Below are positions 37,873 to 64,000 of a stretch of 64,000 nucleotides of DNA, piece after piece. Origin of the DNA: Thiocapsa bogorovii (lineage in GTDB: Bacteria > Pseudomonadota > Gammaproteobacteria > Chromatiales > Chromatiaceae); NCBI RefSeq assembly GCF_021228795.1, contig NZ_CP089309.1, positions 3,903,501-3,967,500 on the forward strand, read 5' to 3'. The first letter of the stretch is position 1. Every line of letters starts with the position of its first letter. Under the pieces are notes generated by a model, which was not told the DNA's origin, made no database searches, and saw only the letters and a program-made list of their open reading frames with translations. Position numbers and translations under genes: made by a program.

Positions 37873-40311
37873 ATGCTACACCTCGACCAAGCGCTCGAGC
37901 TGCACGGCGTAACTGTATATCGCGATTACAACGAGAAAAGTCGCTTCTACTGCCTTCCAGGGTCGCCGCGGCTGGCGGTCGAGGCAGGGCAACCAATGTT
38001 TCAGCTCCTCGTCTACCGCGACATAGTCGAAGAGGAAGATGAGGCGAAGGGTGGCGGATTCCTCGCCATGACCGCGGATCTGGGTATCTCTCCGGATACG
38101 CTCGAGCGTATCCGGAACGAGTTGTCCGGACGGTTCGGAGTTCGGGCGACCTTGGCACCGGTCCCGGTCACGGGAGGGTCGGTGCGTGTCGTAGCGCTCG
38201 ACAGCGAAGCCGACCCCGAAGCCGGCGGCGTGCGATTCGTCGAGAATCTAATCGCGAGCGGCAAGCCTAGTCTCTACGGCGACCAGCGAGCTGTATTCAG
38301 CACCGAACTCAGCAAGAAGGGTGCTGTTTTGATGAAGGCGGCACTCGAGGGAGAAGGCGCCACGCCGGTGGTGCTGATCTACGACCTCCAGTACATCGGT
38401 CTGCACCCCGCCTATGGCGTCAAGATTACGATCAAGTTCCGCCAGGTCTACGAACACCTGCGGAATCGTATGCAGATCAATACCCTTTGGTTCAAATCCG
38501 ACATCGATCGTGAAATGGAGTTGTTGCGCAAGGCGGGCGGAATCGAGATTGAGGAGGTTGTCTACGAGAACGAAACGCCAGAGGACACGTCGGCCCGTAT
38601 GACGCGGTTGAACACGCTTGCCAAGGAGCTTGCCCAGTGGAGCTTCTTCAGTCCAGCGATCAGTCCGGGAACCGTGCTCGCCGCCGACCGTGGCACCCTG
38701 CAAGCCTACGACGCTATTCCTGACATCCAGGCGATCACCGCAGGATTGACCAGCGGATCGAGGGCGGCCTTGACGGGCGTCGGCGCTCGCGCGGACGCCG
38801 GTGCACCACGGCGCCCTGGGGCCGCGGTCGCGACCGATGCGGTCGAGGGGGAAGCTGGAGGAGAGTCCGAAGGTGGCGGCGGAACCAACGCCGAGGAGCC
38901 GACAGCGCGCGACGAGCCGATGACGGCGGTCGAGGCCTGGAACCGGGCAGGGCGCCCGCAGGGTGCCTTCCTGCTGCGCAGCCTCGAGCAGGAAGAGCGG
39001 CACGATATCGTCTACGAGCTCCACCAGGTTGCCGCGGTCGAGCGCTCGTTCGCGCCACAAGGGCAAATCCGGCTTCTCGAGGGTGCGTCGGGGATGCCGG
39101 GGCGCATCCTCCAAGTCGACCTCAGCGCCGACTTCTTCAAGACAATCGAAGGCTCGATCTCGACCACCGCCGACCTCGAGGCGCTAGGCGTCGCGTCCGT
39201 TGTGGTCAAGCTGCGCTACGGCGAGAAAGAGGAAGGGGATCGGTGGAAGGACGAGGACGAGGCCGTGCTCTCCGCGCCGGGCGACTCGCACTCTTACCGC
39301 TTCTTCATCGACCATCGCGACACCCGGGAGGTCGAGTATCAGGTGACGCTCAACTACCGGCCGGATTTCGCGCTCGGGCATGAAGCGCCGACCGAGACCT
39401 CTGGCTGGATTCCGACGACCACGCGGAACCTCGACATCAACCCGCTGGCCTTCAGCTCTGTGCTGCCGATCCATCTGGAAGCCGCGATGGTCGACTGGGA
39501 CTCGGTACAGCAAATTCAGGCTCGCGTGCACTATGCAGATAGCGCCTCGGGCATCGATGCCGCCGACACCAAAATCCTCACGCAACAGTCGGCGTCGGCT
39601 GACTTGCGCATCCGTCCGAAAGACGCGGCCAAGCGCGATGTCAGTTTAGACGCGGTCTTCTTTTACACCGACGGCGAATCGGAAACCGTCTCTATGCGTC
39701 ACGCCGGGGACGAGCCGTTCGTTCTCAATCAGCCTCCGGAGTCGATGGTCGCGGTTAACCTTAGACTGGCCGATATCCTGGATCGTTACAAACGGATCAA
39801 TGTGCAGCTCCGACGCTCCAGTACCGCCGCGCCCGAGGTCGAGCAAACGGTCACACTCGGCGAGGGAACCCTCGACGGACAGTGGTCATTTCGCAGAGAG
39901 GGTGACGACGGCGCGAGCTTCGCCTATCGCGTCACCGCCTTCCTCAAGGACGGCGCGGTGCGCGAAGACGACTGGAAAACAACAGACAATCCCCTCGTGG
40001 TCGTCGGTGACCGCGCCGCCGGCGTGCTCACCGTCCGGGTCATGTTCCTCGGGCCGCTCGCGGACGGGGGGTTCCGGCTCGCCAAGCTCAAGCTTGACTA
40101 TCCTGACGCGCCAGACTGGGCGGACTCGAATGTCGAGCAGGTCTTCCGCACCGGTCAGGAGGAGTTCACCTGGCGGGTCCCGATGACCCGCACCGACGCG
40201 ACGTCCTACATCTATGAGGTTACATGGTTCGGCAACGACGGTAGTCGCCGGACGACCGGGCCGGTCACGACGAACGAAGAGATCCTCCTTCTCGATCCTC
40301 TGGCTCCCTGA
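37873..40311 (+). CDS. Cluster gene 1: large PSLYG-domain protein
   Basis: An 812-residue protein of no family I can name. The N-terminal domain (~1-200) carries the cluster's landmarks: YRDYNEKSRFYCLPGSPRLA, KPSLYGDQRAVFSTELSKKG and YIGLHPAYGVKITIKFRQVY. A helical spacer and a Gly/Glu-rich linker follow. The middle domain has FAPQGQIRLLEG, and about four ~90-residue beta-sandwich-like repeats end with YIYEVTWFGNDG. No signal peptide or membrane segment is visible. ATG 37873 follows GGAGTGAAC. The next gene starts eight bases after its stop. Closest paralogs here are genes 4 and 7. Confidence 0.85.
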   Translation: MLHLDQALELHGVTVYRDYNEKSRFYCLPGSPRLAVEAGQPMFQLLVYRDIVEEEDEAKGGGFLAMTADLGISPDTLERIRNELSGRFGVRATLAPVPVTGGSVRVVALDSEADPEAGGVRFVENLIASGKPSLYGDQRAVFSTELSKKGAVLMKAALEGEGATPVVLIYDLQYIGLHPAYGVKITIKFRQVYEHLRNRMQINTLWFKSDIDREMELLRKAGGIEIEEVVYENETPEDTSARMTRLNTLAKELAQWSFFSPAISPGTVLAADRGTLQAYDAIPDIQAITAGLTSGSRAALTGVGARADAGAPRRPGAAVATDAVEGEAGGESEGGGGTNAEEPTARDEPMTAVEAWNRAGRPQGAFLLRSLEQEERHDIVYELHQVAAVERSFAPQGQIRLLEGASGMPGRILQVDLSADFFKTIEGSISTTADLEALGVASVVVKLRYGEKEEGDRWKDEDEAVLSAPGDSHSYRFFIDHRDTREVEYQVTLNYRPDFALGHEAPTETSGWIPTTTRNLDINPLAFSSVLPIHLEAAMVDWDSVQQIQARVHYADSASGIDAADTKILTQQSASADLRIRPKDAAKRDVSLDAVFFYTDGESETVSMRHAGDEPFVLNQPPESMVAVNLRLADILDRYKRINVQLRRSSTAAPEVEQTVTLGEGTLDGQWSFRREGDDGASFAYRVTAFLKDGAVREDDWKTTDNPLVVVGDRAAGVLTVRVMFLGPLADGGFRLAKLKLDYPDAPDWADSNVEQVFRTGQEEFTWRVPMTRTDATSYIYEVTWFGNDGSRRTTGPVTTNEEILLLDPLAP

Positions 40312-40319
40312 GGTACGCC

Positions 40320-43136
40320 ATGTCGCATCCTGATCTCCCCACCTACCGAGACGGTTTCTTCGAGACATTCCTCGCCGAGCTGCCGGCTTCGCCGACCCTC
40401 GCGGATCTCGAAAGACGGCAGCCGGCCGGCCGGCCGCTTGCGATGCTAGGCGACTACATAGAGTACTCGGGCAGCGCGTTGGCCCCGCTGCCGGGCGCTT
40501 CGGTCACGCCCCAGTACGCGGTGCGCACGGATGTCGGGGGCGAACCCCGGACCTACGTTCTTCTCTGGGTGGTGGAGCGGATCGACGTGGCCACGGACAC
40601 CCGTCCGACAATGGCGCGGATCCTCGCAGACTTCAGGCCGCCGACAGTGGGCACCGGCGAGGAGGAGAACACGCTGACGTCGGCGCATGCGGAATCCTGG
40701 GCGGAGGCCATCGCCTCAGACAATGTGCGCCAGGCGCTGGCGCGCAACCTCGATGAGATTGCCGAGGTTCCGTCCGGTCTGCCGACGAGCGATCTCACCG
40801 AGCTCAAGGACTTTCTCCTCCACTTCGGGACCTACAAGAGCGATGGCACTTACTATACGAAGGGGACGGTCACCGAGGGTGAGTTTCCGGCCGGGGTCGG
40901 CGAGCCTTACCTGGCGGCCGACACGGGGAACGTCGCCGAAGTACGCCTGCCGCGTGACCAGTTCTACTGCTCGGCCCTCGTTCCGGAACGGCTGTGGAGC
41001 CCGCAGGCTCCGGCCGACAACTACCGACAGCTGGTTTACCGGATCGAGGACCAAGGCGAGGACGCGACCGAGCGCTGGCGCCTGGGGCTCGTGCACACAG
41101 TCAGCGCGTACCAACCCAGCTCCGGAGGATTTTCGCGGTTCGTATTCTTCCATGCCGCGGTCGGTCTCGGGCTCGCAGTGCCGGAGGGCGCGCGCACGGC
41201 TCTGGCGCCGTCGACCGCGGGGCTGCTGGATGAGCTGCCCGCCCACCTTGCCGCGCTGTCGGAAGCTCTCTCAGATTCGGACACGCCGATCGTTGGAACG
41301 ACCGAGACCCCGTACGTTCTTCTGATCGGCGCGGTGGCGGAGGGCTTCCCTCGCAGCGACCTTCCCGCACTCCCCGAGGGACTTGTCGCCGACGGCACAG
41401 GGTTTGTTCGCACGTTTCGCTGCCCCCCGGAGCATGTGATGGCGCTCGCCCAGCGCGATGATGTCGATGACCTCGAACTCTCGACGCCAGTGTGGCCGAC
41501 GATGAGCGATGCAATGAATGAGCTCAACCTCGGCGCGCGGACCTTTCCATCGGGCGTGACCGCGGCCAATAGCGGCCACGGCGTCGTCGTCGGCATCGTG
41601 GATACCGGGATCGACGGAGGGCACCCGGCGTTTCTGGGGCGGCACGACGACGCGACCAAAACGCGCATCCACTCCGTCTGGCACCTGTGGGAGTCGGGGG
41701 GCGAATCGCCGTGGCTGCGCAGTGGCAGGGATGCTGCCTATCGGTCGATGCACTTCGGCCGCGAGTACATCGGACACGACGAAGTGACGACGACACGGGA
41801 CTACGCGCCGGACGGGAGCGGTGGCTGGAACTCGGGCCATGGCACTCACGTCGCTGGCATCGCAGCGGGTAGGTCGTTTGGAGCCTGGCCGGGCGGAATC
41901 GCCCCCGGAGCCACGATCGTCGTGGCAGGCGTTGGCTCTCGGGGTGGCTACGTGAATGACGTGATCGCGGGGGTGAAGTACTGCTTTCAAAAAGCGACCG
42001 AGCTGGGAATGCCTTGCGTCGTCAACATCAGCTTATCGACCCAGCGTCACTCACACGACGGTACCGATCCACTCTCGATCGGGGTCACTCAGCTTGTCAG
42101 TCGCAACTTTGTTCCAGCAACAGGCCTGGGGCCGCTTCCGAGCGCGATGCCAGGCTACCTCGACGGGCGCGTAATATGCGCCGCCGCAGGTAACCTCCGA
42201 AGCGATCCGACCCACTGGCAGGCGACGATCCCGGCGGGGAGCGAGGCTTCGGTCCTCTATCAGCCGTTCGGCCGGGGGGGCAGCTCGCGCCAACCGAACG
42301 ACGGAGTGAGCTTCTGGGCCTACAACGGGGACGGAACAACAGTACGGCTTCGGATTTCGGCGCGCCACTCCTCAAACGCTGTCCTTGCGACTCCCGAGAT
42401 CGGCATGCGGCGCACCGGCGGCGCAATTACGACAAATCTGCCCGGAGGCCTGAGGGTCAACCTGCACAATCCGCCCGAACGTCCGAACAACCGCCACTTC
42501 AACCCGGAGGTGTACTGGATTCGCCCTACCCCGGCGACTGCTGTGGCAACCGCCCCTTGGATCATCCGGCTGCGTAACCGTGGCCGCGCAGCGTGCATAG
42601 TCCACGGTTTTTCCGCCTTCCGAGAGCATCGGGGCGGATTCGTTTTCGACGCGGCCCGGACGCAGCCCCTGATCGGTGTGACCTACACTGCCGACCAGCT
42701 TGCATCGTTCGAATCGCATAAGATCGGGATTCCCGGCTCCGGACACGGCACGATCTGCGTCGGTGCCTTCACCAGTCGACCCGGTATGGCCGGCAGCCCT
42801 GTCGGCGAAATCGCCCCGTTCTCGTCTCCGGGACCGCACCGAGCAGCCGCTCCGGGTCAGCGGGTTATCGATGTCGCGGCTCCCGGGCACGTGATCAGCT
42901 CCGCCAAGTCCTGGATGCCCGACGACGCGAGCCGCGGCGTCACCGACAAGTCGGGGACGAGCATGGCGAGCCCGATGGTCACGGGGCTCGTGGCGGCGCT
43001 GATGCAAATCGACCGAAACCTCGATATGGGACAAATTCGCAACAGGCTCGAGCTAGCGAGCTCGCGCCGAGCGACCGACTCGGTCGACGACTGGGGGTTG
43101 GGACGCATCGACGCAGCGGTTCTGCTCAGGTCCTGA
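40320..43136 (+). CDS. Cluster gene 2: subtilisin-like serine protease (S8)
   Basis: A 938-residue S8 peptidase. A unique ~410-residue N-terminal region precedes the catalytic domain. The catalytic set is complete: Asp428 in VGIVDTGIDGGHPAF, His507 in NSGHGTHVAGIAAG, oxyanion Asn625 in CAAAGN, and Ser881 in SGTSMASPMVTG. A ~200-residue insert lies between Asn and Ser. No signal peptide is visible, so it is either cytoplasmic or exported by a non-Sec route. The ribosome-binding site overlaps the previous stop. The context suggests processing of the large paralogous proteins; inference only. Confidence 0.93.
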   Translation: MSHPDLPTYRDGFFETFLAELPASPTLADLERRQPAGRPLAMLGDYIEYSGSALAPLPGASVTPQYAVRTDVGGEPRTYVLLWVVERIDVATDTRPTMARILADFRPPTVGTGEEENTLTSAHAESWAEAIASDNVRQALARNLDEIAEVPSGLPTSDLTELKDFLLHFGTYKSDGTYYTKGTVTEGEFPAGVGEPYLAADTGNVAEVRLPRDQFYCSALVPERLWSPQAPADNYRQLVYRIEDQGEDATERWRLGLVHTVSAYQPSSGGFSRFVFFHAAVGLGLAVPEGARTALAPSTAGLLDELPAHLAALSEALSDSDTPIVGTTETPYVLLIGAVAEGFPRSDLPALPEGLVADGTGFVRTFRCPPEHVMALAQRDDVDDLELSTPVWPTMSDAMNELNLGARTFPSGVTAANSGHGVVVGIVDTGIDGGHPAFLGRHDDATKTRIHSVWHLWESGGESPWLRSGRDAAYRSMHFGREYIGHDEVTTTRDYAPDGSGGWNSGHGTHVAGIAAGRSFGAWPGGIAPGATIVVAGVGSRGGYVNDVIAGVKYCFQKATELGMPCVVNISLSTQRHSHDGTDPLSIGVTQLVSRNFVPATGLGPLPSAMPGYLDGRVICAAAGNLRSDPTHWQATIPAGSEASVLYQPFGRGGSSRQPNDGVSFWAYNGDGTTVRLRISARHSSNAVLATPEIGMRRTGGAITTNLPGGLRVNLHNPPERPNNRHFNPEVYWIRPTPATAVATAPWIIRLRNRGRAACIVHGFSAFREHRGGFVFDAARTQPLIGVTYTADQLASFESHKIGIPGSGHGTICVGAFTSRPGMAGSPVGEIAPFSSPGPHRAAAPGQRVIDVAAPGHVISSAKSWMPDDASRGVTDKSGTSMASPMVTGLVAALMQIDRNLDMGQIRNRLELASSRRATDSVDDWGLGRIDAAVLLRS

Positions 43137-43248
43137 CTGGAGGCGACCGTGCGCCGCGAGACAGGCCGTCGACCGAGCACGAGCGATCTCCTCGCCGCGG
43201 CGAGAGGCTTCTGCCGTTGGCGCCGGCCAAGACATAGGGTGGCGATCG

Positions 43249-45318
43249 ATGCTTGACGCCGGACGCGCTCCTGCCTATCTGCACGGGCTGATCGTTTTTT
43301 TCGACCACGCCGACGAGGACCTGCGCTACATCGTTCCCGAGACGCCGAGGATCGTCCTGGACCCTGATCCTCGGCTCTCGCTGTTGCTGTATCGGAGCGG
43401 CGAAGGCGGTAGCGGCGGTCTGTTGCAGCTCGAGTCGTCTCTCGCCCCGACCGAAACCCAGCTGGAGGCGGTCGAGAGAGACCTCGCCAGCGCCGGGCGA
43501 ACCCCGACCTTGGCTCGCCCGGACTGGCGCTCCGGGACCGTCCGTGTCGTCGGCTGGCTCGATGAGGGGGGGCTGACGCCGATTGCGCTGGCGGTCGGGC
43601 CGCCGTCACTGGTCGGCGATCCGCTCGTCGTTCTTGCAGCTCACCTCGACCAGGCTGGCGCCGCGTTGGCCGATAGAGCGCTGCGCGACGAATCGCTTCC
43701 GACTGCCCTCATCTTCGAGTTGGAAACGATCGGCCTCTCTGGTCCGCTGGGTATCGAGGTCGAGGCCGATCTGCAGGCGGTCCACGACCGTCTGACGGCC
43801 GAGGGGGCGCTCACGACACCTTACGGGAGAGCCCGCCTGGCCAAGACCTGGGAGGCGCTCGAGCGGGAGAACCTGATCCGCGTAAAAGTGGTCGACGAGG
43901 GTGGCGATGTCGAGAGTCGGCGCGCCGAGGCTATGCGTCGAGTCGGCGAGGACCTGATCGCCAGCATGTTCAGCCCTTTCCCGCCACCCGAAAAGCCAGC
44001 GGCGCTCGGCGACGAGGCGGTCGCCGCCATCGAGTTGAGCTTCAAGCTCACGATGCGTCGCGAAGAGGTGTCCCGCACCTCGCGGTGGGCCTTCCACGAG
44101 CGTCGCGCGGTCCCGGTTAAGCACTACGCGGCCGCCAGCCTCGTCGGGCTGCTCGGTGGGAAGTCGCCGGCCGATCGCATCCACCAAGTCGACCTCGAGC
44201 CGGAGACGCGCGAGATCGTCGTCCGCCTCGAGCCGGAGCTCGCCAGGCTCGGTATCCTTTCGGTCGAGGTCGACCTGACACGCGATACCGGCGACGACAT
44301 TGAGCAGACCGTCCTGCTGACCGACGAGATCCCGGAGCAGCGCATTGTGCTCGTCGCGCGGAACGACGAGACGCTCATGCATCGCGTGCGCGCGCGCTTC
44401 GATCCGCTGGTGACCCGCGGCGAGGATCGGGAGTCCGGCTGGGTCGGGGCGCTCGGCAACCTGGTGGTGGTGTCGGCCCGGCGCCTCTTTCCGCCGCGGT
44501 CCTTCACGGTGATCGCCGGCAGGGTGGAGTTCGATTGGCTCGACAGCGTTGAGGTCATCGTGGCCGCTCCCGAGGAGCTCGAGCGCACCCTTGTCCTCGA
44601 CGCGAGCACCCGCAGCGCAGATTTGTTTCTACCCGCCGCCGGAGCGGGGCCGCTGAACGTGACGACCCACTGGCGCGGTCTGCCGGGAGAGCCAACGCAT
44701 TCCGACCCACCGCGCTTGGTTGACGACGACCTCCTGGTTCTCGACAGCCCCTTCGGGGACTCGATCCGTGTTTTGGCGGTGCCTCTGCCGCTGTCGGACA
44801 CGCTCTCGATCGTCGTCGAGCTACGCTACGCGGATGAGGGGTACAGCCACAAAAAAACGCTGACTTGGGAGGGAGGCGATCGGGCGCCGAAACGAGCCGG
44901 GCTGCGGCGCCTCGTGGGGAGCCCGCGGAGCTATGAGTATCGCGTTGTCTTACTGCGTCAGAATGGGATACTCGATGAAGGCCCCTGGATCTCGACCGAG
45001 GAGGTCACGCTGGCGGTCGGGGCGCAAGAGGCGGTGCGGGTCCACGAGACCGAGCTGGTGGTCCTCGGAGGCGGGCCGGCCGGGCGCGGAAGTCTTGCCG
45101 TCGAAGCCTTGCTCGAGGCGGGGACGCATCAGGTTCGGCAGCTCCTGGAGGGCGAGGCCGATCACGCCCGGCTGGTGCTGGTCGCGCCGGAGGAGGCCCC
45201 GGCTCCGGCCCTCGTTGTTCGAGAATTCATGATGACCGGCGCCATCGAGGAGACCCTTTGGGAGTCGCCGGAATCCCTCGTTGTGCTGCCTCCTCCGATA
45301 CCCGCCGAAGACCCATAA
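43249..45318 (+). CDS. Cluster gene 3: diverged PSLYG-domain protein
   Basis: A 689-residue paralog. Its N-terminus (LHGLIVFFDHADEDLRYIVP) matches cluster gene 6 most closely (FGDHADENRVYYV). The PSLYG landmark is eroded to PPSLVGDPLVVLAAHLDQAG. A middle domain and two to three beta-sandwich-like repeats follow (e.g. LSIVVELRYADEGYSHKKTL; SYEYRVVLLRQNGILDEG). No export signal. The ribosome-binding site AGGGTGG before ATG 43249 is weak. It lies 112 bases after the protease and 18 before the next gene. Confidence 0.8.
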   Translation: MLDAGRAPAYLHGLIVFFDHADEDLRYIVPETPRIVLDPDPRLSLLLYRSGEGGSGGLLQLESSLAPTETQLEAVERDLASAGRTPTLARPDWRSGTVRVVGWLDEGGLTPIALAVGPPSLVGDPLVVLAAHLDQAGAALADRALRDESLPTALIFELETIGLSGPLGIEVEADLQAVHDRLTAEGALTTPYGRARLAKTWEALERENLIRVKVVDEGGDVESRRAEAMRRVGEDLIASMFSPFPPPEKPAALGDEAVAAIELSFKLTMRREEVSRTSRWAFHERRAVPVKHYAAASLVGLLGGKSPADRIHQVDLEPETREIVVRLEPELARLGILSVEVDLTRDTGDDIEQTVLLTDEIPEQRIVLVARNDETLMHRVRARFDPLVTRGEDRESGWVGALGNLVVVSARRLFPPRSFTVIAGRVEFDWLDSVEVIVAAPEELERTLVLDASTRSADLFLPAAGAGPLNVTTHWRGLPGEPTHSDPPRLVDDDLLVLDSPFGDSIRVLAVPLPLSDTLSIVVELRYADEGYSHKKTLTWEGGDRAPKRAGLRRLVGSPRSYEYRVVLLRQNGILDEGPWISTEEVTLAVGAQEAVRVHETELVVLGGGPAGRGSLAVEALLEAGTHQVRQLLEGEADHARLVLVAPEEAPAPALVVREFMMTGAIEETLWESPESLVVLPPPIPAEDP

Positions 45319-45336
45319 CGCTGCGGAGAAGATGCC

Positions 45337-54186: not shown

Positions 54187-54217
54187 ACTGTCCTCTCGTG
54201 GTGTGAAGTGCGAAGAG

Positions 54218-56902
54218 CTATGACTGTCGCGGTGCCGGGGGTATGACCACGGCCGGCTTGTCCAAGGTCACCGGGCTCGAGGTGACGGTGGCTCCGTCGG
54301 CCATGTACCAGGTGACGGTCATCACGTAGCCCAGCGGGGCGTCGTCGGCAACGGGCACGAACCACTCTTGCACGGTGCCGTCCGTGAAGACCAGGGTCAT
54401 GCGCTCGTGAACATCGCGCTGCGCGTCGTCATAGCTCAGGTTGACCTCGACGGCGGGAGTCGCCGTAAAATCCTGCCGGATCGGCATGAACTTTGCGCCG
54501 ACCTTGGGGATCGAGTATCTGTGCACGACGATCAACTCGTCCTCGGTCGTTTCCCACTCGCGCTCGACCGGGTCGCCTTCCACCGGGAAGTAGGTCGTCT
54601 GGTAGCGGTATCGTTTCGGCCCCCCCTCGCGGATCGGAATCGACCAGATCTTGACATCGTCCGGTTTTTGCAGCGACACGCTCTCGACGTCACGCTCGCC
54701 TTCCGGGTCGTCGTATTCGAGATCGACCTTCGCCAGCGGTGTGCTTGCGAAATCGAGCACCGCTCCGGTGACTCTGACTTCGAGCCGAGGCGGCCCGACG
54801 ACCTTGAGGCCGAGCGCTTGGTCGCCATCGCGCGACAGCCACTCGGTCTCCTGGGTATCGCCGTTCAGGAAGGTCGAGAGGATGCGGTACTCGAAGGCAC
54901 GCTTGTTCGGATCGAGCAGGATTACCGCCCACTTCTTGAATTCGTCCGACTTCTTGAAGTTATACTGCGCGTCGCGATGATAGTCGCCGTCCTGGTAACG
55001 CAACGAAACGACCGACTGAATGACGTCGGTCCATATTCCTGCCGGCACCAGAGGCACGTCGAGGACGTCGATCTCGGGCGGTTTGATCAGGATATTCTGC
55101 GTTGGTCCGTCGGTCTTTTCCCAGCCAACCTCGATCGAGGTCCCGGTCTTGAGCAGGTACTCCACGCGGTAATCGATCGGTTTCTCCCATGGCGCATAGA
55201 GTGGTAGTCGCCAAGTGCCCGACGGTCTATCCGGCGCGAGCAGGATCGACTGCCCCGACTCCGGCACGTCGTTTGAGCCATCCTCGTACTTCAGGTGCAC
55301 CAAGACGGCGTCGAGGATGTTCTCGAAGTCGAGCCCGACTCCGGTGACCTCGGTGGAAAGGATGCCAGGTGTTTCCACCGAGACGTTGAGATTGCGCGTT
55401 GTCTCCTTGTTCCATCGCGACCAGTCCTCCGGCTCGCGGCCCTCGAAGGCGACCCGCCAACGGTACTCATAATCCCGATTGCCGGCGATCACCGACGGGT
55501 CCCACTCCTTGGGGTCGTTGTCGGTCGCAGTAAAGGTGAAGGTCTGCGTCTTGATCTGGCCGCCGTGGGAGTATTTGATCTCGATCTCGACGAAGGCGAT
55601 CTCATCTTCCTCCCAATTGGCGAAGGCGCGCGCTTTGAGGCCGAGGGTGTTGAAAAAGGCGTCGCCGAGCAGGATCTGGCGCACGAATTTGTCCATGTCG
55701 GTGCGGCCGTGAAAGAAGACAGCCAAGGTTCCCTGGGGCGCGATCTCGAATTCGGTTGTCGTGTTGATCTCCATGGTGTGCTCGAAGTTCGTCATGTCGA
55801 CTTCGGTGACCTGCTTGAGGCGATAGACCTCGTTGGAGCTCTCCGCGAGGTCCGAGTCAGCCCACTCTTCCATGGGCTCGCGCTCCTTTTCGGCAAACCT
55901 GTCGGTGAGCAGCTGCTGGACCATGTTCATGGCCTGCTGCATCATCATCTGCTCGAGGTCGTCGTCCTGCACCCCGCCCATGTCGATCTTGACGGTGATC
56001 AGGCCCGCCTCGATCGCCGTGCTCATCAAATTCTCGGACGTGAAGTAGTCGTCGGTGCAGTTGTGGTGCTCGTGGAAGAGCTCTTGGACGGAGTGATAGA
56101 TCGAAGCGGTGTTGAACTTCACGTACATCGTGGCCGGGGGTAGTTTGGCCAGCATCTTGATCTGGTAAACCACCTGGATCGGGCTCAGGTCGGTAGCGCC
56201 GCCGCCATCTTCACCGACCAGCGTCTTCTGCATGAATGTGGCGCCGTCGGGGGTGAGGTCCATGTTGAACGCGGCGACATTATTGCCGATCAGCGACGCG
56301 GGCCGCTCGGTGGTGGCGTGCTGCACGAGACCGGTGGATTGTGGCGCGCTCATGGTGACGTTGCCGCTGATCCACAGCGGCTCGCCGATCACGACCTGCG
56401 GCGCCGGCGCACCCGTGGTCGGTGGCTCGAAACCGCTGCCGGGCATGGTCAGGAAAGTGGTGGAGCCACGGCTCGCCGAGGCGCGTCTTGTGCCGCGCAT
56501 GCCTTCCTGCCCCCAGTGCTCGCCAATCGTGTCGACAAAGGTGGCGCCGAGCTCGAGCGTCCGCAACTTGTCGTTCGGCATGTGCTTCATTCGCTCCCAC
56601 TCGGCGTCGACCCAGCTCTGAAGGTCGGCTATGATGTGGTCGCGGTGCTCCGCACTCACCTTGAGCTCCGAGTCGAACACCATGTAACCGCCGCCGCGCG
56701 GCAGCTCGGGATCCTCTTCGCGCGCCGCATCGGAGAAGGCATATTTGATGAGCTGAAAGACCGGATCGCCGTCGGGCGTCAACCGAACGGTCGGGAATCC
56801 GGGAATGGCGTAGAAACGCCAGAACTGGGCGTCGTCTTGAAAGACAGTCGCGGTCTCTCCAGTCGGGAACTGGTACTGCTTGAAGGCGGGGAGCTTCAGC
56901 AT
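54218..56902 (-). CDS. Cluster gene 8: PSLYG-domain protein with five repeats
   Basis: An 894-residue paralog, most similar to gene 9 next door (shared MLK(L/I)PA start, DELPRGGG-type motif and N-terminus WRFYAIPGFPTVRL). Instead of PSLYG it has ERPASLIGNNVAAFNMDLT. The spacer has a Met-rich stretch (DLEQMMMQQAMNMVQQ). The middle domain contains EFEIAPQGTLAVFF. The C-terminal half is five ~88-residue beta-sandwich-like repeats (e.g. DFASTPLAKVDLEYDDPEGE; KRYRYQTTYFPVEGD). Ribosome-binding site GAGGAGAA precedes ATG 56902. No signal peptide. Confidence 0.85.
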   Translation of the reverse strand: MLKLPAFKQYQFPTGETATVFQDDAQFWRFYAIPGFPTVRLTPDGDPVFQLIKYAFSDAAREEDPELPRGGGYMVFDSELKVSAEHRDHIIADLQSWVDAEWERMKHMPNDKLRTLELGATFVDTIGEHWGQEGMRGTRRASASRGSTTFLTMPGSGFEPPTTGAPAPQVVIGEPLWISGNVTMSAPQSTGLVQHATTERPASLIGNNVAAFNMDLTPDGATFMQKTLVGEDGGGATDLSPIQVVYQIKMLAKLPPATMYVKFNTASIYHSVQELFHEHHNCTDDYFTSENLMSTAIEAGLITVKIDMGGVQDDDLEQMMMQQAMNMVQQLLTDRFAEKEREPMEEWADSDLAESSNEVYRLKQVTEVDMTNFEHTMEINTTTEFEIAPQGTLAVFFHGRTDMDKFVRQILLGDAFFNTLGLKARAFANWEEDEIAFVEIEIKYSHGGQIKTQTFTFTATDNDPKEWDPSVIAGNRDYEYRWRVAFEGREPEDWSRWNKETTRNLNVSVETPGILSTEVTGVGLDFENILDAVLVHLKYEDGSNDVPESGQSILLAPDRPSGTWRLPLYAPWEKPIDYRVEYLLKTGTSIEVGWEKTDGPTQNILIKPPEIDVLDVPLVPAGIWTDVIQSVVSLRYQDGDYHRDAQYNFKKSDEFKKWAVILLDPNKRAFEYRILSTFLNGDTQETEWLSRDGDQALGLKVVGPPRLEVRVTGAVLDFASTPLAKVDLEYDDPEGERDVESVSLQKPDDVKIWSIPIREGGPKRYRYQTTYFPVEGDPVEREWETTEDELIVVHRYSIPKVGAKFMPIRQDFTATPAVEVNLSYDDAQRDVHERMTLVFTDGTVQEWFVPVADDAPLGYVMTVTWYMADGATVTSSPVTLDKPAVVIPPAPRQS

Positions 56903-56914
56903 GTTGCATTCTCC

Positions 56915-59734
56915 TCAAGCTGTCTGGTACGGGGTAATGGAGACGACCGGATCATCACTCTGACCGGAAGGCCCATCGATCCGCCGGCCGTCAGCGAGGT
57001 TGTAGACCACCTCGTAGCTGTAGGTGCGCTGGGCACGGTCGCCCACATCGACCGACCACGACATGTTCTTCTGGTTCTCGTGGAGCGTCAGCGTCTTGCG
57101 CTCCTCGCGATCTCCATCGACCCAGGTCAGAGTGACGTCGACGAAAGGCGTGTTGGCGAAATCGACCGCGAAGCCGCGGACGATGACCTCGAGCTTTCCG
57201 GGAGTGACGAGCTTGGCTTTGGGAATGAAGAGCTCGGTATCGGCCGTGCGAACCAGTCCCGAGCGGATCGGGTTGCCGTCGGTCGGGTGCCACGTGATCT
57301 CGTAGGTGTAATTTCGGCTGCCGTCGACGTCCAGGGGGACCTCCCAGGAGGCTGTTCGGGAATCCGTGAAGCTCAGGGTCTTACCCTCCCCGCCGTAGGT
57401 CAGCGAAACCGTCACCGCCGGCGTTCGTGTGAAATCGACCAAATTCGAGAGGATGTTGACCCGGAGCTTCGGAACCCCCTTGACCTTGATCGGGATCGCC
57501 TGATCTCCGGTCTCGGTGTGCCACTGCGAATCCTCGAATTGGCCGTTCTTGTAGGTCACGAGGGTCTTGTAGCGGAAGGTACGGCGGGTCGGGTCGCGCA
57601 GAAGGACTTGCCACTCGGCGAAGTCGTCGACCTTCGCGAAGCGATAAGTGCGGTCGAAGACCTGCCCGTTACCGGCGTCGTACTCGAGCGACACGACTGC
57701 CTGCGCTACGTCGCTCCAGTCGCCGGTCGGCACCAGACTGACGTTGAGCACGTCCACCTGCGGCGGCGGAACGACGAATAGGTTCTCGCTCGCGGCGACC
57801 TTCTGGGGCTCGGCCTCGACGACCTTGTCGTCCTTCAGAAAATAGGTGGTTTGAATGTCGACGGCACCGAGCAGTTCGCGCTTGAAGCCGTGCTCCCACT
57901 TGCGGGTTGGGACGAGCTCGGTGAGCTCGAAGGTCCTCTCGATCAACGGATCGCTACGATCCGGATCCGAATAGGACAACTTGACCGTGATGCCGCGGAG
58001 GATCTCCCAGTTGAGCGCCGCCGACGAGACCTCGAGCTCGAGCCGCCCCGGATCGACGATGCTGATGTTCAAGGCCCGGTTGGTCGACATCTCCCATGGC
58101 GTGTACTCGGTTACCCCCCCATCATCGTAGAAGATCCGATAGCGGTGCTCGTACTCGTGCTTGCCGCCGATGATGGCGGGGTCGAACCGCTGTGGGTCCA
58201 TCTCACCGGCGCGGAAGGTGAACGCGGCGTTCGTCGTATGCTCCTCTCCATTGTCGGCCTTAGCGCTGTACTTGAGCTGGATCTCCACGGCTTGGAACGG
58301 AGAAGTCTCGAAGGCGACCATCGCCATTACCGTCACTCCGAGGGTATCGAAGTCGTTGGGGAAAAGCTCGACGACATGACGTCCGATCTCATCGGCGCTC
58401 GCTCCGCTGAAGAAGGTGGCGAGCGTCGCTTGGGCGACCAGCGGCCATTCGACCACCTGGGAGCGATCGATCTTGATCTCGAGCTTCATCGTCGAGTAAT
58501 TGACCGTCTTGCGGACCTTGTAGCGGCTTGTCGGGGGACGCCAGACCTTCGCCGATTGGGCCCGATTGTCCCAGCCGCCACCGAGGCTCCTCATCGAAGA
58601 GCTGATCTGCTTGCTCTGACCACCGTATCCGGTTCTACGATAGAGCGTCACGCGATGTCCGGGACGTACCCGAACCGATGATACTTTGCCCTTGAGGTCA
58701 TCCAGGCTGTCCTGGTCTTCGTCGACCTCGAGGCTGGTCCCCGAGTAGTTTCTTCCATCGTATAGAACGGCTGCCCAACCGGGGTCGCGATCCTGGCTCT
58801 CCTGATCGTCGGAGTCAAATTCGAGGTTCTCGTCGTCGCCCTCGGCCGGCACGAGAAAGCGCTCCTCGATCATGGTGTCGAAGAGATCGAGTGCGTAGTC
58901 CTGAAGAGCCTCGACAATCTCGTCCGGAACGGTTGCATCGCCCTTGTCGATTTGCACCTTGACATCGCCCGACTCGCGCAGCGTCGAGCTGTTGACACCG
59001 CTCTCGCGGAAGGTTTCTACCTCGCGCGGTGTGCACGGGTTGTCGCGATTGGTCTCGGAGATTTTGAGCAAGGTCTTGTGCACGCGCTTCGATTGCCCCG
59101 TCACGGTGATCAGTATCGGTGGCGTACGTGCCCACATCCTGAGGTCGTAAATTACCTGAACCGGCGTCAGGTCGATTCTTCCAGTACCGTCGGTGTCGAC
59201 CATGAGATCCTTCATGAACTCGGCGCCGAGCGCGGTCAGGTCCATATTGAACACTGCGGTCGAGCCGCTCACCAGAGAGGCGGGCGCCTCGGCGAAGCGG
59301 TCGGTGACGAGGAGATCCGACTGCGTCGTCTGCATCTTGACCGTGCCGCCCGAAAGCAACGGATCGGCGAGCTCGACGGTCGGAGCTTGACTGTCGGCGT
59401 ATTCGCGCAGTCGGGAGAACTGCCGATGCCCGCGCCGGCGCGCGTACTCTTCCTCGACCCACTGCTGAAGCTCGGTTCGGGCGCGCTCGGTTGTCTCTTC
59501 GTCAACGGCGAACTGAACATCGAAGTTCATGAACCCCCCGCCCCGCGGTAGCTCGGGATTCTCCGCGCGTTCCTGGTCCGAGACATGGTAGCTCGCGAGC
59601 AGGAATACCGGCCGGCCGTTCTGATCGCGGCGGATGCTCGGCATGGACGGCAGAAGGTAGAAGCGGTACCAGACGGCATCGTCTTGGTAAACGGTGACAT
59701 CGCCAATCTTGCGGATAGCCGGAATCTTCAGCAT
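56915..59734 (-). CDS. Cluster gene 9: PSLYG-domain protein with crystallin-like insert
   Basis: A 939-residue paralog starting MLKIPAIRKIGDVTVYQDDA; ATG 59734 follows GGGGGAAG. The N-terminal domain (WYRFYLLPSMPSIRRDQNGR; APASLVSGSTAVFNMDLTAL) and spacer are followed by a beta/gamma-crystallin-like unit at ~319-400 (AAVLYDGRNYSGTSLEVDED; RVTLYRRTGYGGQSKQIS; WDNRAQSAKVW). A middle domain and five beta-sandwich-like repeats as in gene 8 complete it. Crystallin folds often bind Ca2+; the key residues are not verified. First gene of the minus-strand unit, 149 bases from divergent gene 10. Confidence 0.85.
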   Translation of the reverse strand: MLKIPAIRKIGDVTVYQDDAVWYRFYLLPSMPSIRRDQNGRPVFLLASYHVSDQERAENPELPRGGGFMNFDVQFAVDEETTERARTELQQWVEEEYARRRGHRQFSRLREYADSQAPTVELADPLLSGGTVKMQTTQSDLLVTDRFAEAPASLVSGSTAVFNMDLTALGAEFMKDLMVDTDGTGRIDLTPVQVIYDLRMWARTPPILITVTGQSKRVHKTLLKISETNRDNPCTPREVETFRESGVNSSTLRESGDVKVQIDKGDATVPDEIVEALQDYALDLFDTMIEERFLVPAEGDDENLEFDSDDQESQDRDPGWAAVLYDGRNYSGTSLEVDEDQDSLDDLKGKVSSVRVRPGHRVTLYRRTGYGGQSKQISSSMRSLGGGWDNRAQSAKVWRPPTSRYKVRKTVNYSTMKLEIKIDRSQVVEWPLVAQATLATFFSGASADEIGRHVVELFPNDFDTLGVTVMAMVAFETSPFQAVEIQLKYSAKADNGEEHTTNAAFTFRAGEMDPQRFDPAIIGGKHEYEHRYRIFYDDGGVTEYTPWEMSTNRALNISIVDPGRLELEVSSAALNWEILRGITVKLSYSDPDRSDPLIERTFELTELVPTRKWEHGFKRELLGAVDIQTTYFLKDDKVVEAEPQKVAASENLFVVPPPQVDVLNVSLVPTGDWSDVAQAVVSLEYDAGNGQVFDRTYRFAKVDDFAEWQVLLRDPTRRTFRYKTLVTYKNGQFEDSQWHTETGDQAIPIKVKGVPKLRVNILSNLVDFTRTPAVTVSLTYGGEGKTLSFTDSRTASWEVPLDVDGSRNYTYEITWHPTDGNPIRSGLVRTADTELFIPKAKLVTPGKLEVIVRGFAVDFANTPFVDVTLTWVDGDREERKTLTLHENQKNMSWSVDVGDRAQRTYSYEVVYNLADGRRIDGPSGQSDDPVVSITPYQTA

Positions 59735-59883: not shown

Positions 59884-62526
59884 ATGAAAAATCGCTTTTA
59901 CATGGTCGACACCAACCTCGGCGCAACCCGCGTCGACAAGATTCTCCGCCACAAACAACAGTTGCGCATCAAGGAGCCGTTGGGCGCGACGGTGCCGGCC
60001 GCCGGGGATCGCCCGGTGCTCTCCGGCAGGCAGGAGCTCAAACCGAACGCTCTATACGTATCGGCGAATAACCGGCTGATTCGTTACTATTTGCCCCTTT
60101 ACCGCTTGGCCGTCACGGACGGCAAGCCGGAGGTGGAGTTGCGTTATGGCGTCGACGAGGAGACAGAAGAGGTCGGCCGTCTGACCCTGTCCTTGGCCTG
60201 GACGCCGCCACCGGCCGGCCGGGCGTACCGCGTGCTCGCGATGGACCATAGCGCAGTGCCGTTTCTGCGTTATCAGATCCCCGTCGAGAGGGGCGGCGGT
60301 GCCGGCGAGGATACCGTGCCGCTGCAGCCCCTGCAGCAGGAGGGGAATGGGCGGGCCACCTCGGTGACGATCTTCACCGAGAAGGCCCAGTTTGACGCCG
60401 TCTACCAGGCGATGAGCCGTTCCGACCGCGATGCCTCGCTCGTGATCCAGATCGCGACGCGGGTCGGCGTGCGGACATGGCAGCAGGTCGTTGTCGGCGA
60501 TACGGCAAGCAAGAAGGCGCAGGTCAAGGTCCTAGAGCGCCAAGGGGCTTTCTTCACCCAGACATTGAGTCGAGAGAGTCTGGCCACGATGAGGCGGACG
60601 TCGACGACCACCAGTCGAGTGCGGGTCACGGTGCGGCAACCCGAGCCCGGCGAGGAAGCTGACGTCAACGACCTGCGTCGGATGCTCGCGCGGCCGCGCC
60701 AGGGCGCTCGGTTGTCGGCGAGGAATCGCACCCCGCCGCGAATGGCCCAAGTCGCGAGCGGCGCCACGCGGCGCCCGTCCGCGGCCACGAGCCCGCGCAG
60801 AACGGGGGCGCCGCGCCCGCGGGTTGCCGTCGAAAGGACCGTCTCACCATCTACGGTCCGCCTCGCGGCCCCTGTGCTGATGCGCGCCCGCGTTGCTCCG
60901 ACCGCGCCAGTCGCACGCACCACGGTGGCCGCTCGGGCGCCGAGCGCCGCCAGAGTCACGCCCATGCCTACTACGCGCACGTCGGCGTCGACGGCTCGAA
61001 CTGTGACGCCCAGGGTCGCGATCACCAGCGCCAGGGTGTCGGCAACACGCCCGGTTTTTTCATCGGCGGCGCTCGCGCGCGTGAACGCAGTGGCCCTCCC
61101 ACTGGCGGTGGCGAAGAGTGATTTGAAGATCGCTGGCAGAAAGGCCGTGCCGACGAAGATCGCGCTCGATACGCGAGGTAAGCCGGCGATCATCGACACG
61201 GATCTGGAGAACGAGCAAGAGATCCCTTTCAACTTTGACCCTGACGTCGCGACGAATGACGAAGTGTTCGCGATCACCGGCTATCATCGGGGCGGCATCC
61301 ATCTCTTGATACCTGTTCCGTTGTTTGCGGCCTCGGGACGACAGCTCGCCGTCGTCTATCAAGACAATCTGATGCGCGACCTCGTCTATGTGGCGCCAAT
61401 GGAGTTCCGGCTCGCCCGCTACGTTGAAGATCCGTTTCTGCCAGGACTCACCTTTCTGCCGGGGGATTTTTCGACCAGCGCGGGCGAGAGCGAAGCTGAG
61501 GTCTTTTATCAAGTCGTGATGTCCTACCAACTCGAGCCGTGGATCGACCCCGAGGTGATCGAGCTCGCACGTGCTGAGCTGGCGCACCAGGGTCTCGTGG
61601 CGCGCTTTTCGCCGATACTCCCGCGGGAGGCCCGCCTCAAGCTCGACCTCGATATCCTGGGCGATGCGCAGGACCGCGACGAGGCTGAGATCGAGGCCGC
61701 CGTCGGGATCACGGACACGCTGGTACTCGACCACGAGGCCTTCGTACGGCTTTGGCGCGAACGCCTTACGAAGGAAGCAGGGGTCGTACGCGGTCAGGTC
61801 AGCTACCGGTTGTTCGACGGCACCGAGGCCCACAGCGGCGTTGCGATCTCGCTGTGGCAGACCTCCGCAGATGTGTTCGACGTCGACTTCATCGGTCCGG
61901 TGGAGGGTAGCCAGGGGCGGTATCGAGTCCAGTTGCGAAACCGGATCGAGAGTCCGGTGGTGATCGCGGATCCTCCGACTCGAGAGATCCTCGCCGACGG
62001 AGTCGTGGCAGAAGCAGTCAATGGAGCCGCGCTCGCGCAGCGCGTGGTGGCGCCGCAGGAGGTCGTGGAGGTGGACTACCAGGTCACGCCTGCCGACGCC
62101 GCCTTCGCTTCGCTCGAGCCGGTGGTGCTCGGACGCGTACAGCCGAATCCGGGCAGCTTGTTGAGGCTACTGATGTTGACGCCTGGCTATGGCTCGCTGA
62201 GCTTTTCGGTGATGGTTCGAGCCGCCGGGGGAACGTTCGGACCGCCCGCCGAGGGTGCCGAATCCCTTACCGGACTGATGGTCGAGTTCGACGACGGCTC
62301 GGAAGCGAGGCTCACACCCGACCAGTCGGAAGCGGAGGTCAACCTCGTCGGGCGATTGATCGACCAGATTCTCGGCACCGCGGACGATCAGCAGCGTTAC
62401 TTCTACCGGGTCACCAATCTCCATCCGAGTGGCGAGGGGGCTCGCACGGAGTGGCGTGAGGGCCAGGGTACCGATCCTCTCACGGTCGGGACTGCGGTCG
62501 TCAAGCTCGGGCAGTTCGACTTCTGA
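59884..62526 (+). CDS. Cluster gene 10: two diverged PSLYG-type domains
   Basis: An 880-residue protein starting MKNRFYMVDTNLGATRVDKI, ATG 59884 preceded by AGGAGACG. It appears to hold two weak copies of the cluster's N-terminal domain. One is at ~60-210 (NRLIRYYLPLYRLAVTDGKP ... EVGRLTLSLAW). The other is at ~485-690 (YQDNLMRDLVYVAPMEFRLA; TDTLVLDHEAFVRLWRERLT). A basic Ala/Thr/Arg-rich low-complexity linker (~268-400) separates them. The C-terminal part ends with two beta-rich repeats (QQRYFYRVTNLHPSGEG). No signal peptide. It overlaps gene 11 (TGATG). Confidence 0.75.
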   Translation: MKNRFYMVDTNLGATRVDKILRHKQQLRIKEPLGATVPAAGDRPVLSGRQELKPNALYVSANNRLIRYYLPLYRLAVTDGKPEVELRYGVDEETEEVGRLTLSLAWTPPPAGRAYRVLAMDHSAVPFLRYQIPVERGGGAGEDTVPLQPLQQEGNGRATSVTIFTEKAQFDAVYQAMSRSDRDASLVIQIATRVGVRTWQQVVVGDTASKKAQVKVLERQGAFFTQTLSRESLATMRRTSTTTSRVRVTVRQPEPGEEADVNDLRRMLARPRQGARLSARNRTPPRMAQVASGATRRPSAATSPRRTGAPRPRVAVERTVSPSTVRLAAPVLMRARVAPTAPVARTTVAARAPSAARVTPMPTTRTSASTARTVTPRVAITSARVSATRPVFSSAALARVNAVALPLAVAKSDLKIAGRKAVPTKIALDTRGKPAIIDTDLENEQEIPFNFDPDVATNDEVFAITGYHRGGIHLLIPVPLFAASGRQLAVVYQDNLMRDLVYVAPMEFRLARYVEDPFLPGLTFLPGDFSTSAGESEAEVFYQVVMSYQLEPWIDPEVIELARAELAHQGLVARFSPILPREARLKLDLDILGDAQDRDEAEIEAAVGITDTLVLDHEAFVRLWRERLTKEAGVVRGQVSYRLFDGTEAHSGVAISLWQTSADVFDVDFIGPVEGSQGRYRVQLRNRIESPVVIADPPTREILADGVVAEAVNGAALAQRVVAPQEVVEVDYQVTPADAAFASLEPVVLGRVQPNPGSLLRLLMLTPGYGSLSFSVMVRAAGGTFGPPAEGAESLTGLMVEFDDGSEARLTPDQSEAEVNLVGRLIDQILGTADDQQRYFYRVTNLHPSGEGARTEWREGQGTDPLTVGTAVVKLGQFDF

Positions 62527-64000
62527 TGCTCGTCCTAATTCGCGATGGCGACTCCTTTGCGGACGACTCGGACGAAGCGGTTCGGTATCGACTGCCGTCC
62601 GGACTGAGGCCGCTGACCGCGCCAGACGGTTCGAGTCAGGTCGCCCTGAGCCGGAGTCCGGACGGAGGACTGCTCCACCTGCGGCTGACGCCAGTCTGGC
62701 CGAAGCTGGCGGCGGGGGAGCGGCGTGTTTCCTTTGCCGATGGTCGTTTCCGTCTTCTGCTTCGGACTCCAACCGCGTCCGAGAACGGTCAGTGGCGCCG
62801 AACGGCTGCTGTCGGCGATGCGGTCGTCGATCGAAGCGTAAGTCTCGACTCGCTCGAAGTTGCGATTGCCCAGCGTCTCGGCGCCGGCGGCGATGAGGTC
62901 ATCGACGTCGAGGTCGAGCTGAAGGTGCAAGGCTTCGCGCCGACATTCCCCTGGCGTGTGCGTGCCGATGGCCGAATGGTGCAGAGCCAACTCACGGCGC
63001 TTGTAGGCTCATCGCCGGCCGACTGGACACGGATCCAGGATGCGTTTCTCGGGCTTGACACCACGGTATTCACTTGGTACCCGCTGGCACCGGCAGCGCT
63101 GCCACCGCCGAATGACGAGGCGCTGTTGACGATTGCTCTGCACTCCGCGCCTTTCCTGCTGGATGCCGCGGACGACGGGTGGGTCGTTCGGCAGGCGGTG
63201 CCTGAGCATCTGGAATTGAGCCTCCAGGTACCTCGGCTCGACTCCCGGCTGATTGGCTTTCGGTGGTCGTTCTCCGAGTTCCTGGCCGCTCAACCGGATC
63301 CCGCGCGTTACCTGACCGAGATCCGAGAGCCGGCGCCGTTCGAGGCCGCGGAGCTGCTGGTAGTGAACGATGTATTGCTGTCCGACGCCGGCGTGCGCAG
63401 CCTGGAGGTCGAGATCCTCACCGGAGGCCCAACCGGGAGGCTGCGGCATGTGTTCCGCCCCGGTGAGCCAGGGGCAGTGCGGCTGCGTTTCGTGCGAGAG
63501 ACCTTCGAGGTGCTTGCGCTTTCTTGGCGGCTCAAGGCGGCAGTTTACACGCCCAGGGGGACGACGATGACCGAGACCGGCTTCCGGCCGACCGGTCTCT
63601 TCCTCGAAGTGAACACCGCCGCGCTCGGACTCACGCCCCTGCGTTTTCGAGCGGAGCCGGATCTCTTCGATACGCTCGAGGCGTTGGAGGTCGCGGTGGG
63701 TTCTCGAGCTCTGAAGCTGACCGCGGAGTCCCCGGAAGCCTGGGCGGTGGGTCGTCAGCCGCCGCCCGCGGTGGATGTGGCCGCGGTCCTCGCGGGCGGT
63801 CGCCGAGAGCCGATTGGCTCGATACCGATTGGCGAGCGTGGACTTACGGTGGGGGCGACGATTCTCGGTCAGGGCGAGGTTGTCGAGGTCGCGCTGCAGC
63901 CGGCCGCCGACAACGCGAGTCGCGTGGTCTACCATGCGGTTCAAGTGGAGGGCGGACCCTGGCGGACCCTTGAGCTCGATGGCGGAATCGTCTGGCCCGT
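62526..64000 (+). CDS. Cluster gene 11: PSLYG-type protein, partial (runs off window)
   Basis: An open frame from ATG 62526 to the window end (491 complete codons, no stop), overlapping the gene 10 stop in a TGATG arrangement. It starts MLVLIRDGDSFADDSDEAVR and contains YRLPSGLRPLTAPDGSSQVA and FPWRVRADGRMVQSQL, matching the cluster's N-terminal pattern in outline. Repeated beta-rich stretches follow (FEAAELLVVNDVLLSDAGVR). The 3' end lies beyond the window. Confidence 0.75.
   Translation, partial: MLVLIRDGDSFADDSDEAVRYRLPSGLRPLTAPDGSSQVALSRSPDGGLLHLRLTPVWPKLAAGERRVSFADGRFRLLLRTPTASENGQWRRTAAVGDAVVDRSVSLDSLEVAIAQRLGAGGDEVIDVEVELKVQGFAPTFPWRVRADGRMVQSQLTALVGSSPADWTRIQDAFLGLDTTVFTWYPLAPAALPPPNDEALLTIALHSAPFLLDAADDGWVVRQAVPEHLELSLQVPRLDSRLIGFRWSFSEFLAAQPDPARYLTEIREPAPFEAAELLVVNDVLLSDAGVRSLEVEILTGGPTGRLRHVFRPGEPGAVRLRFVRETFEVLALSWRLKAAVYTPRGTTMTETGFRPTGLFLEVNTAALGLTPLRFRAEPDLFDTLEALEVAVGSRALKLTAESPEAWAVGRQPPPAVDVAAVLAGGRREPIGSIPIGERGLTVGATILGQGEVVEVALQPAADNASRVVYHAVQVEGGPWRTLELDGGIVWP

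Follow-up and report, generated by a model that had tools for sequence, protein, structure and literature searches.

Several described bacterial systems share one feature or another with the gene cluster reported here. In the passages of Kaur et al. 2020 (PMC7159879) that deal with them, the EAD/NTP-dependent conflict systems include one with several trypsins and, at times, an S8 domain, and both lysozyme-like and papain-like peptidoglycan peptidase domains are linked to EAD1. Streptomyces umbrella toxin particles are presented, in the relevant parts of two reports, as secreted multi-protein antibacterial complexes (PMC11062931, PMC13274773). Tailocins and other contractile injection systems, and FN3/Ig-like adhesins and macroglobulin domains, also invite comparison. 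Our cluster lies in a 64,000-nucleotide stretch of the complete 5.65 Mb genome of Thiocapsa bogorovii (G000:C1:3903501-3967500), which we call the window and whose numbering is used for coordinates. It comprises genes g1 to g11 and a twelfth gene, g12, located outside the window (64146-66047). There is strong evidence from sequence comparison that it encodes a set of distinct, co-inherited subunits, a conclusion that is well supported and much firmer than any claim of purpose.

Each comparison reveals a partial likeness. As in the EAD conflict systems, the related cassette of Paracoccus has co-oriented genes for EAD1 proteins, a trypsin and a STAND-like ATPase. In contrast, Pfam detects neither an EAD nor a STAND NTPase among g1-g12, and the PMC7159879 passages in question centre on the NucA endonuclease, with no mention there of large paralogs sharing an N-terminal domain of our type. 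The umbrella toxins are multi-protein complexes, as the products of our cluster may be, but no sequence link to them emerged from searches that were not aimed at them, and our cluster has many leaderless scaffold paralogs, with proteases that are separate genes or fused to other parts. The Umb core proteins carry ALF repeats and lectins; no umbrella-toxin family was matched in general Pfam scans of g1-g12, in which no Umb profile was searched. As for tailocins and contractile injection systems, the likeness lies in the leaderless multi-gene set and, in some lineages, in nearby lytic enzymes, but no tail, sheath or baseplate family was credibly matched in Pfam (g1-g12) or PHROGs (g1-g10). A phage or viral origin was considered and rejected: a search of 50,697 phage records with g7 found no match, nor did one of IMG/VR with a profile of two of the subunit classes (C/D, defined below). 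A PHROGs tail-fibre match of the proline-rich part of g4 (0.06) was treated as chance. Finally, the tandem β-sandwich tail of g7 is reminiscent of FN3/Ig-like adhesins and macroglobulin domains, but this likeness is structural only (Z below 8), and the set of distinct N-domain subunits has no match among them.

More generally, Pfam returned nothing credible for g1-g12 except for the g2 subtilase and a β/γ-crystallin-like insert in g9 (Inhibitor_I36, E = 1e-6; Crystall, E = 4e-6), so that, by these searches, the scaffold of the cassette is without a curated Pfam family. NCBIfam and PHROGs searches of g1-g10 gave only g2 protease matches and weak, chance-level ones, while the sole PADLOC match among seven window proteins was that of g2 to a generic subtilase model. 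PDB sequences searched with profiles of the N-domain, of classes C/D, G, F and A and of the g4 insert yielded nothing credible. A match of the A8 profile to the viral polymerase 1khv (0.0013) was treated as chance because it was isolated and covered 94 positions. No system of such composition was found in the open-licence papers searched. The original prediction, made from the nucleotide sequence alone, had called the cluster undescribed, and this holds across all of these sources.

A common N-terminal domain (N-domain) is found in eight of the eleven genes: g1, g3, g4, g6-g9 and g11. This is fewer than the nine first proposed, since the match of g10 is weak and not N-terminal (hhalign E = 6e-4, probability 29, residues ~489-590) and g2 and g5 show no paralogy to the other cluster genes. 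BLASTP searches reveal g1, g3, g4, g7, g8 and g9 as mutual paralogs (g8/g9, E = 2e-75; g1/g7, E = 2e-41; g4/g7, E = 5e-27). As for g6, a tblastn search of the genome itself with g7 aligned it at 30% identity across residues 20-279 (E = 1.3e-16), and the alignments agree. The N-domain profile (A13), built on 28 rows that include g1, g3, g4, g6 and g7 and exclude g8 and g9, finds g8 at E = 9e-15 (the better of two pieces) and g9 at 6e-24 in a set of ~70 proteins. The g11 protein is linked through its ortholog family, whose profile matches g3 (8e-13), one H-type protein (1e-12) and g7 (9e-11). The E-values of both profiles are lenient because small protein sets were searched. The g12 gene is related to the C/D class.

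Homologous cassettes in other genomes allow subunit classes to be defined, which we designate by letters: A (g10), B (g11), C (g9), D (g8), E (g7), F (g5) and H (g6), with a class G that is not in the window. The order A-B-(small)-C-D-E-F-G-H is kept in cassettes of rhizobia (four), Hydrogenophaga (two) and Anaerolineae (one), the small gene being seen only in Anaerolineae and Mariprofundaceae. In the Mariprofundaceae set, C/D is represented by one gene and the profile detects no F (the candidate Mar_x1 was rejected as an F protein, being unsupported by the profile), and the short Roseiflexaceae contig holds C and D only. A second arrangement, that of the window, has g12-g11-g10 diverging from g9-g8-g7-g6 and is kept in Nannocystaceae, with identities of 56% (g6), 60% (g7), 60% (g8), 50% (g9), 39% (g10), 42% (g11) and 38% (g12); the same contig carries g1, g3, g4 (48%) and g5 (46%). 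In a filamentous cyanobacterium, a window-type set is spread over short contigs whose ends cut the arrangement. There, the identities are 70% (g2), 55% (g4), 47% (g5), 62% (g6, in part), 67% (g7), 62% (g8), 55% (g9), 40% (g10) and 44% (g11, in part); g3 is matched at 60% across its first 261 residues and at 48% across residues 307-683 on a different contig, and g1 is absent among the N-domain profile matches. Co-occurrence of the homologs in other genomes, which had been put forward as a check, is therefore borne out by subunit orthologs with conserved order in unrelated phyla.

A tree of 58 N-domain rows gives the same picture. It left out g11, g12, the B and small proteins and Pac_9, as well as three rows, from genomes of the Nannocystaceae phylum, whose N-domains were poor or partial. 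The seven subunit classes need six label changes, which is the minimum (shuffled labels average 24.4, and none of 200 shuffles is as low). Classes E, H, g1, g3 and g4 each form one side of a branch, with a support of 94/68 for E, and the window, cyanobacterial and Nannocystaceae rows group at 100/100 in E, H, C, D, g3 and g4. Near-copies would cluster under any label, but the rows within a class span different phyla. Grouping by class and not by host strongly favors a transferable set of subunits that are not equivalent. On these alignments, the simplest account would be a multi-subunit assembly in which each subunit has its own role and which is transferred as a unit. Thus, the non-equivalence of the subunits, as predicted, rests on recurring orthologs, gene order and a class-wise tree, while their union in one physical assembly is something that we infer.

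The cassette is, within the genomes sampled, rare and sporadic across distant phyla. No g7 match was found in 37 searched relatives, ten of them congeners, and the N-domain profile found no match in the ten congeners. Translated searches revealed a Pararhizobium megaplasmid and a Paracoccus plasmid with homologous sets of genes, and a distant member in Deinococcus. A pattern scan of a genome collection, built on the C/D alignment (A8), found ten loci, in three rhizobia, two Hydrogenophaga, the cyanobacterium and metagenome-assembled genomes (MAGs) of Anaerolineae, Roseiflexaceae, Nannocystaceae and Mariprofundaceae; it relied on two short patterns and does not cover the collection exhaustively. 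When genomes were sampled with the N-domain profile, the phylum of Thiocapsa had 3 positives among 398 genomes, that of the Nannocystaceae MAG 4 among 282, that of the cyanobacterium 1 among 292 and that of the Anaerolineae MAG 1 among 301, with query genomes counted. Genes in unannotated loci come from simple callers, which gave wrong-strand frames in high-GC loci and over-extended some starts.

Most of the cassettes encode a protease. The g2 protein was predicted to be a complete subtilisin-like protease, and indeed its subtilase part (PF00082, E = 9.5e-34) has all the Asp/His/Ser triad motifs: DTGID (from residue 428), HGTHVAG (507) and GTSMASP (879). A protease, either class G, S8 or both, is encoded in 10 of 12 cassettes, namely the window, Pararhizobium and the ten pattern-scan loci (8/10 of the latter). 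In class G, Q331, C337, H519 and N535 are invariant in 6/6 rows from four lineages, motifs that we take to be those of a papain-like cysteine peptidase. Pfam gave no match for the class G proteins of Pararhizobium (E up to 1) and Anaerolineae (E up to 10), and class G has no credible PDB sequence match. In both Hydrogenophaga, class G is fused behind a region that matches the subtilase part of g2 (29-30%), and a full-length g2-like protein (28%) lies beside a g1 relative in a further genome of the Nannocystaceae phylum (G653). Elsewhere, Paracoccus has two trypsin-like genes, Deinococcus has a caspase and Mariprofundaceae has a NAL1-type protein co-oriented with the cassette. The expected co-occurrence with an S8 protease thus holds in the cyanobacterium, in both Hydrogenophaga and in one genome from the phylum of the Nannocystaceae, while other cassettes have the papain-like enzyme instead.

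Full-length structural modeling covered g7 only (mean predicted local distance difference test score, pLDDT, 78.5; predicted template modeling score, pTM, 0.37). The model consists of an N-domain (1-277), a low-confidence linker (278-310) and, at 371-749, successive FN3/Ig-like sandwiches, which we divide into four, mostly with a pLDDT above 80. The predicted β-sandwich repeats of ~90 residues are therefore real where tested. In a second-look comparison, matches of the tail span 371-749, the top one being a single domain of anthrolysin O (Z 7.9), and adhesins also appear, among them the pilus adhesin PitA (Z 6.8-6.9); the Foldseek rows are headed by macroglobulin and complement proteins, with template modeling scores below 0.1. 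Modeled alone (pLDDT 76.2, pTM 0.55), the N-domain shows β-strands mixed with helices and has no clear fold match (the best values being E 0.03 in Foldseek and, in the second-look comparison, Z 6.0 across 89 residues). Its weak matches are β-sandwich domains, and it may have a known fold. An insert in g4 (46600-47142) looks OmpA-like by eye only; its profile matches no PDB sequence, and Pfam gives no OmpA-type family at E up to 10. We also considered a complement-like cascade, which would link the macroglobulin-type sandwiches, a weak TED match (0.04) near a member in G353 and a MACPF protein in G678, and did not adopt it because every link is weak.

The tail of g7 bears on the extracellular structure put forward in the original prediction, taken here as a cell-surface adhesive or matrix structure that would be matured by its own protease. 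The tandem FN3/Ig-like domains and the matches to PitA and other adhesins are what such a structure might show, relatives in two genomes bear leaders, and the hosts include, by name, a filamentous cyanobacterium and a Nannocystaceae MAG. Yet tandem sandwiches are common and are weak evidence of adhesion, the window proteins have neither a leader nor a recognised anchor, and the lytic enzymes beside several cassettes would be left unexplained. We therefore regard a surface structure as doubtful.

As for export, a crude hydropathy scan agrees with the prediction that no window protein has a visible signal peptide, no 15-residue stretch within their first 60 residues exceeding 1.53. The scan is imperfect, and values of 1.6-1.8 occur in a few cassette proteins that have no visible leader; internal 19-residue windows of g1-g12 reach 0.9-1.75, so a transmembrane segment is possible. 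In contrast, eight of ten N-domain rows from the distantly related sets of two genomes in the Nannocystaceae phylum, G611 and G678, have Sec-type leaders (1.93-2.73); a ninth row reaches 1.57 and the frame of the tenth is over-extended. As judged from these leaders, the N-domain family probably acts outside the cytoplasm in those two sets. Near the leader-bearing N-domain genes of G678, there is a gene (L094:1660-5757) for a 1365-residue protein with a lipoprotein-like start and LamG and MACPF domains.

In three lineages, the cassette contains or adjoins genes for enzymes that act on peptidoglycan, with no obvious leader in their translations. In Nannocystaceae, a gene corresponding to the N-terminal region of g2 (g2N) overlaps g1 and is followed on the same strand by a gene without family match, a muramidase gene and one for a Tae4-type amidase with PG_binding. 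In Mariprofundaceae, an Amidase_3 gene is co-oriented behind the cassette. In Hydrogenophaga, a VanY/M15 gene with PG_binding adjoins class H (Pfam in one genome, a near-identical start in the other). The Deinococcus caspase also carries PG_binding. As a control, we counted PG_binding_1 matches, of which there are four in the Nannocystaceae genome and five in one Hydrogenophaga genome, with one in each beside the cassette. Chance proximity in two genomes is thus unlikely, bearing in mind that the families were picked after being seen. The co-encoded peptidoglycan enzymes suggest that the leaderless sets would also act extracytoplasmically, reaching that site by lysis or another route. The proposal that the proteins belong to an extracellular or cell-wall-associated structure is therefore plausible in view of the two leader-bearing sets and the peptidoglycan enzymes, but the window proteins show no export signal.

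Taken together, these findings lead us to lean, tentatively, towards a heteromeric assembly that would act on the envelope from outside the cytoplasm, with a protease of its own and interchangeable enzymes. Some eight to nine paralogous scaffold subunits, each at a distinct conserved position, together with A (g10) and F (g5), would form one hetero-oligomer, a typical scaffold subunit being composed of an N-terminal β-sandwich-plus-helix domain and an FN3/Ig-like tail, as modeled in g7. The dedicated protease (the g2 subtilase, elsewhere a papain-like enzyme or a fusion) would process or activate the assembly, or might itself be the active cargo. The scaffold would stay the same and the enzymes that it carries (proteases, muramidase, amidase, carboxypeptidase, phospholipase, tyrosinase) could be exchanged, and the whole set would move among phyla as a unit. 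Although leaderless, the assembly would act outside the cytoplasm on cell envelopes, in an antagonistic or lytic manner; such a role has only moderate support. A more specific version, which we consider unlikely, is a new kind of bacterial antagonism device not derived from phage, in which a cross-phyla cassette combines a leaderless hetero-oligomeric scaffold of about nine non-equivalent paralogs with a protease module and swappable envelope-degrading enzymes. Here, g2N would be the docking domain for the active enzyme, fused to the subtilase in the window and followed by separate downstream lytic genes in Nannocystaceae.

Several observations weigh against an envelope-directed assembly. The physical association of the subunits is deduced from their genes, the branch of class C in the tree is weak (64/27), and class D is split, solely by the Mariprofundaceae C/D gene. 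The N-domain model is moderate (pLDDT 76, pTM 0.55) and without a clear fold match. As to the protease, the Nannocystaceae stretch that was read holds only g2N, and the Roseiflexaceae contig is too short to show one. No peptidoglycan hydrolase was recognised in the flanks seen of the window, Anaerolineae, rhizobial and Paracoccus cassettes, where several genes were assessed only by their annotation or first residues. In Hydrogenophaga, the VanY gene is on the opposite strand and the PG_binding_1 match beside the cassette falls just under the cut-off, while the two such matches in each of the Mariprofundaceae and G611 genomes are all away from the cassette. The leaderless forms could be cytoplasmic, and some neighbors, the EAD1/STAND-like genes, the caspases and a TIR-WD40 gene, are typical of intracellular conflict systems.

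These neighbors make an intracellular conflict system the chief rival, in which a cytoplasmic sensor or scaffold would activate a trypsin, caspase, papain-like enzyme or subtilase upon infection, leading to defence or programmed death. In Paracoccus, the cassette is preceded, on the same strand and with overlapping ends, by genes that Pfam assigns to an EAD1-trypsin, an EAD1 protein and a STAND-like ATPase. Caspases accompany N-domain genes in Deinococcus and G611, and a TIR-WD40 gene (L036:2-1642) diverges from the Anaerolineae cassette. Most cassettes are without a leader, their occurrence is sporadic and a BREX (bacteriophage exclusion) BrxC/D gene lies near the window cluster. Against this, one of the G611 caspases has an apparent leader and Sec-type leaders occur in two sets, peptidoglycan enzymes are co-encoded in several lineages, and, of the seven window proteins compared with PADLOC, only g2 matched, to a generic model. 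On balance, we consider intracellular defence rather unlikely.

Other neighbors hint at oxidation. Paracoccus also has a tyrosinase in its cassette, and a P450-containing protein with a weak Dyp-peroxidase match (L016:7687-11958) is encoded upstream of A in rhizobia, its full length of 1423 residues being seen in Pararhizobium. The scaffold might then hold such enzymes in a metabolic or oxidative-modification complex. However, no enzyme of this kind was seen in other cassettes, and in Pararhizobium an oppositely oriented Crp/Fnr regulator gene intervenes between the P450-containing gene and A, which leaves this explanation very improbable.

The layout of the cluster is given in the table below. 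The three strand units with start-stop overlaps that had been predicted for g1-g11 are confirmed as plus, minus and plus, with TGATG at the g6/g7 and g10/g11 junctions.

Genes of the Thiocapsa bogorovii cluster in window numbering; the starts of g6 (51898) and g9 (59734) are as corrected, and percentages are identities
Gene	Coordinates	Strand	Product
g1	37873..40311	+	812 residues, N-domain and repeat region; Nannocystaceae ortholog 44%
g2	40320..43136	+	938 residues, ~400-residue N-terminal region without family match (g2N) fused to a subtilase (S8); cyanobacterial ortholog 70%
g3	43249..45318	+	689 residues, N-domain family; Nannocystaceae ortholog 49%
g4	45337..48654	+	1105 residues, N-domain family, Ser/Pro-rich spacer and insert; orthologs in Nannocystaceae and cyanobacterium
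g5 (class F)	48606..49637	+	about 328-343 residues (start approximate), conserved component, non-paralogous
g6 (class H)	49550..51898	-	782 residues, N-domain family
g7 (class E)	51898..54186	-	762 residues, N-domain 1-277, FN3/Ig-like sandwiches 371-749 in model
g8 (class D)	54218..56902	-	894 residues, N-domain family
g9 (class C)	56915..59734	-	939 residues, N-domain family, β/γ-crystallin-like insert
g10 (class A)	59884..62526	+	880 residues, conserved component, weak N-domain trace in second half
g11 (class B)	62526..64000 (full to 64142)	+	538 residues in full, divergent N-domain family member

The surroundings of the cluster are rich in mobile genes. At 7839-27502, F-type conjugation genes (TrbI, TraK, TraF, TraG_N), together with an SLT transglycosylase gene and an actin-like gene, identify, by their families, a conjugative element beside the cluster. 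Immediately to its left (31802-36570), a DEAD helicase gene, a BREX-type BrxC/D gene and a large serine recombinase gene may mark the edge of a mobile island. Elsewhere, a degenerate g3-like N-domain copy with two stops (L001:4541-5011) and a lone repeat-only fragment, g13 (L001:9164-10024), both with insertion sequences nearby, are remnants of either a second copy or a once longer cluster. Beyond the cluster, amid insertion sequences, there is also a gene for a Ricin-type lectin (Pfam E = 1.5e-24) with a leader-like start (L001:12119-13009).

A cassette of about 12 genes, compact and with an order kept across Pseudomonadota, a cyanobacterium, Chloroflexota and Nannocystaceae, looks like an unnamed molecular machine. 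If it does encode an envelope-attacking particle, it would represent a route of bacterial antagonism that is not made from phage parts. If it proves instead to be a defence system or a surface structure, it would be equally undescribed within the searches made.

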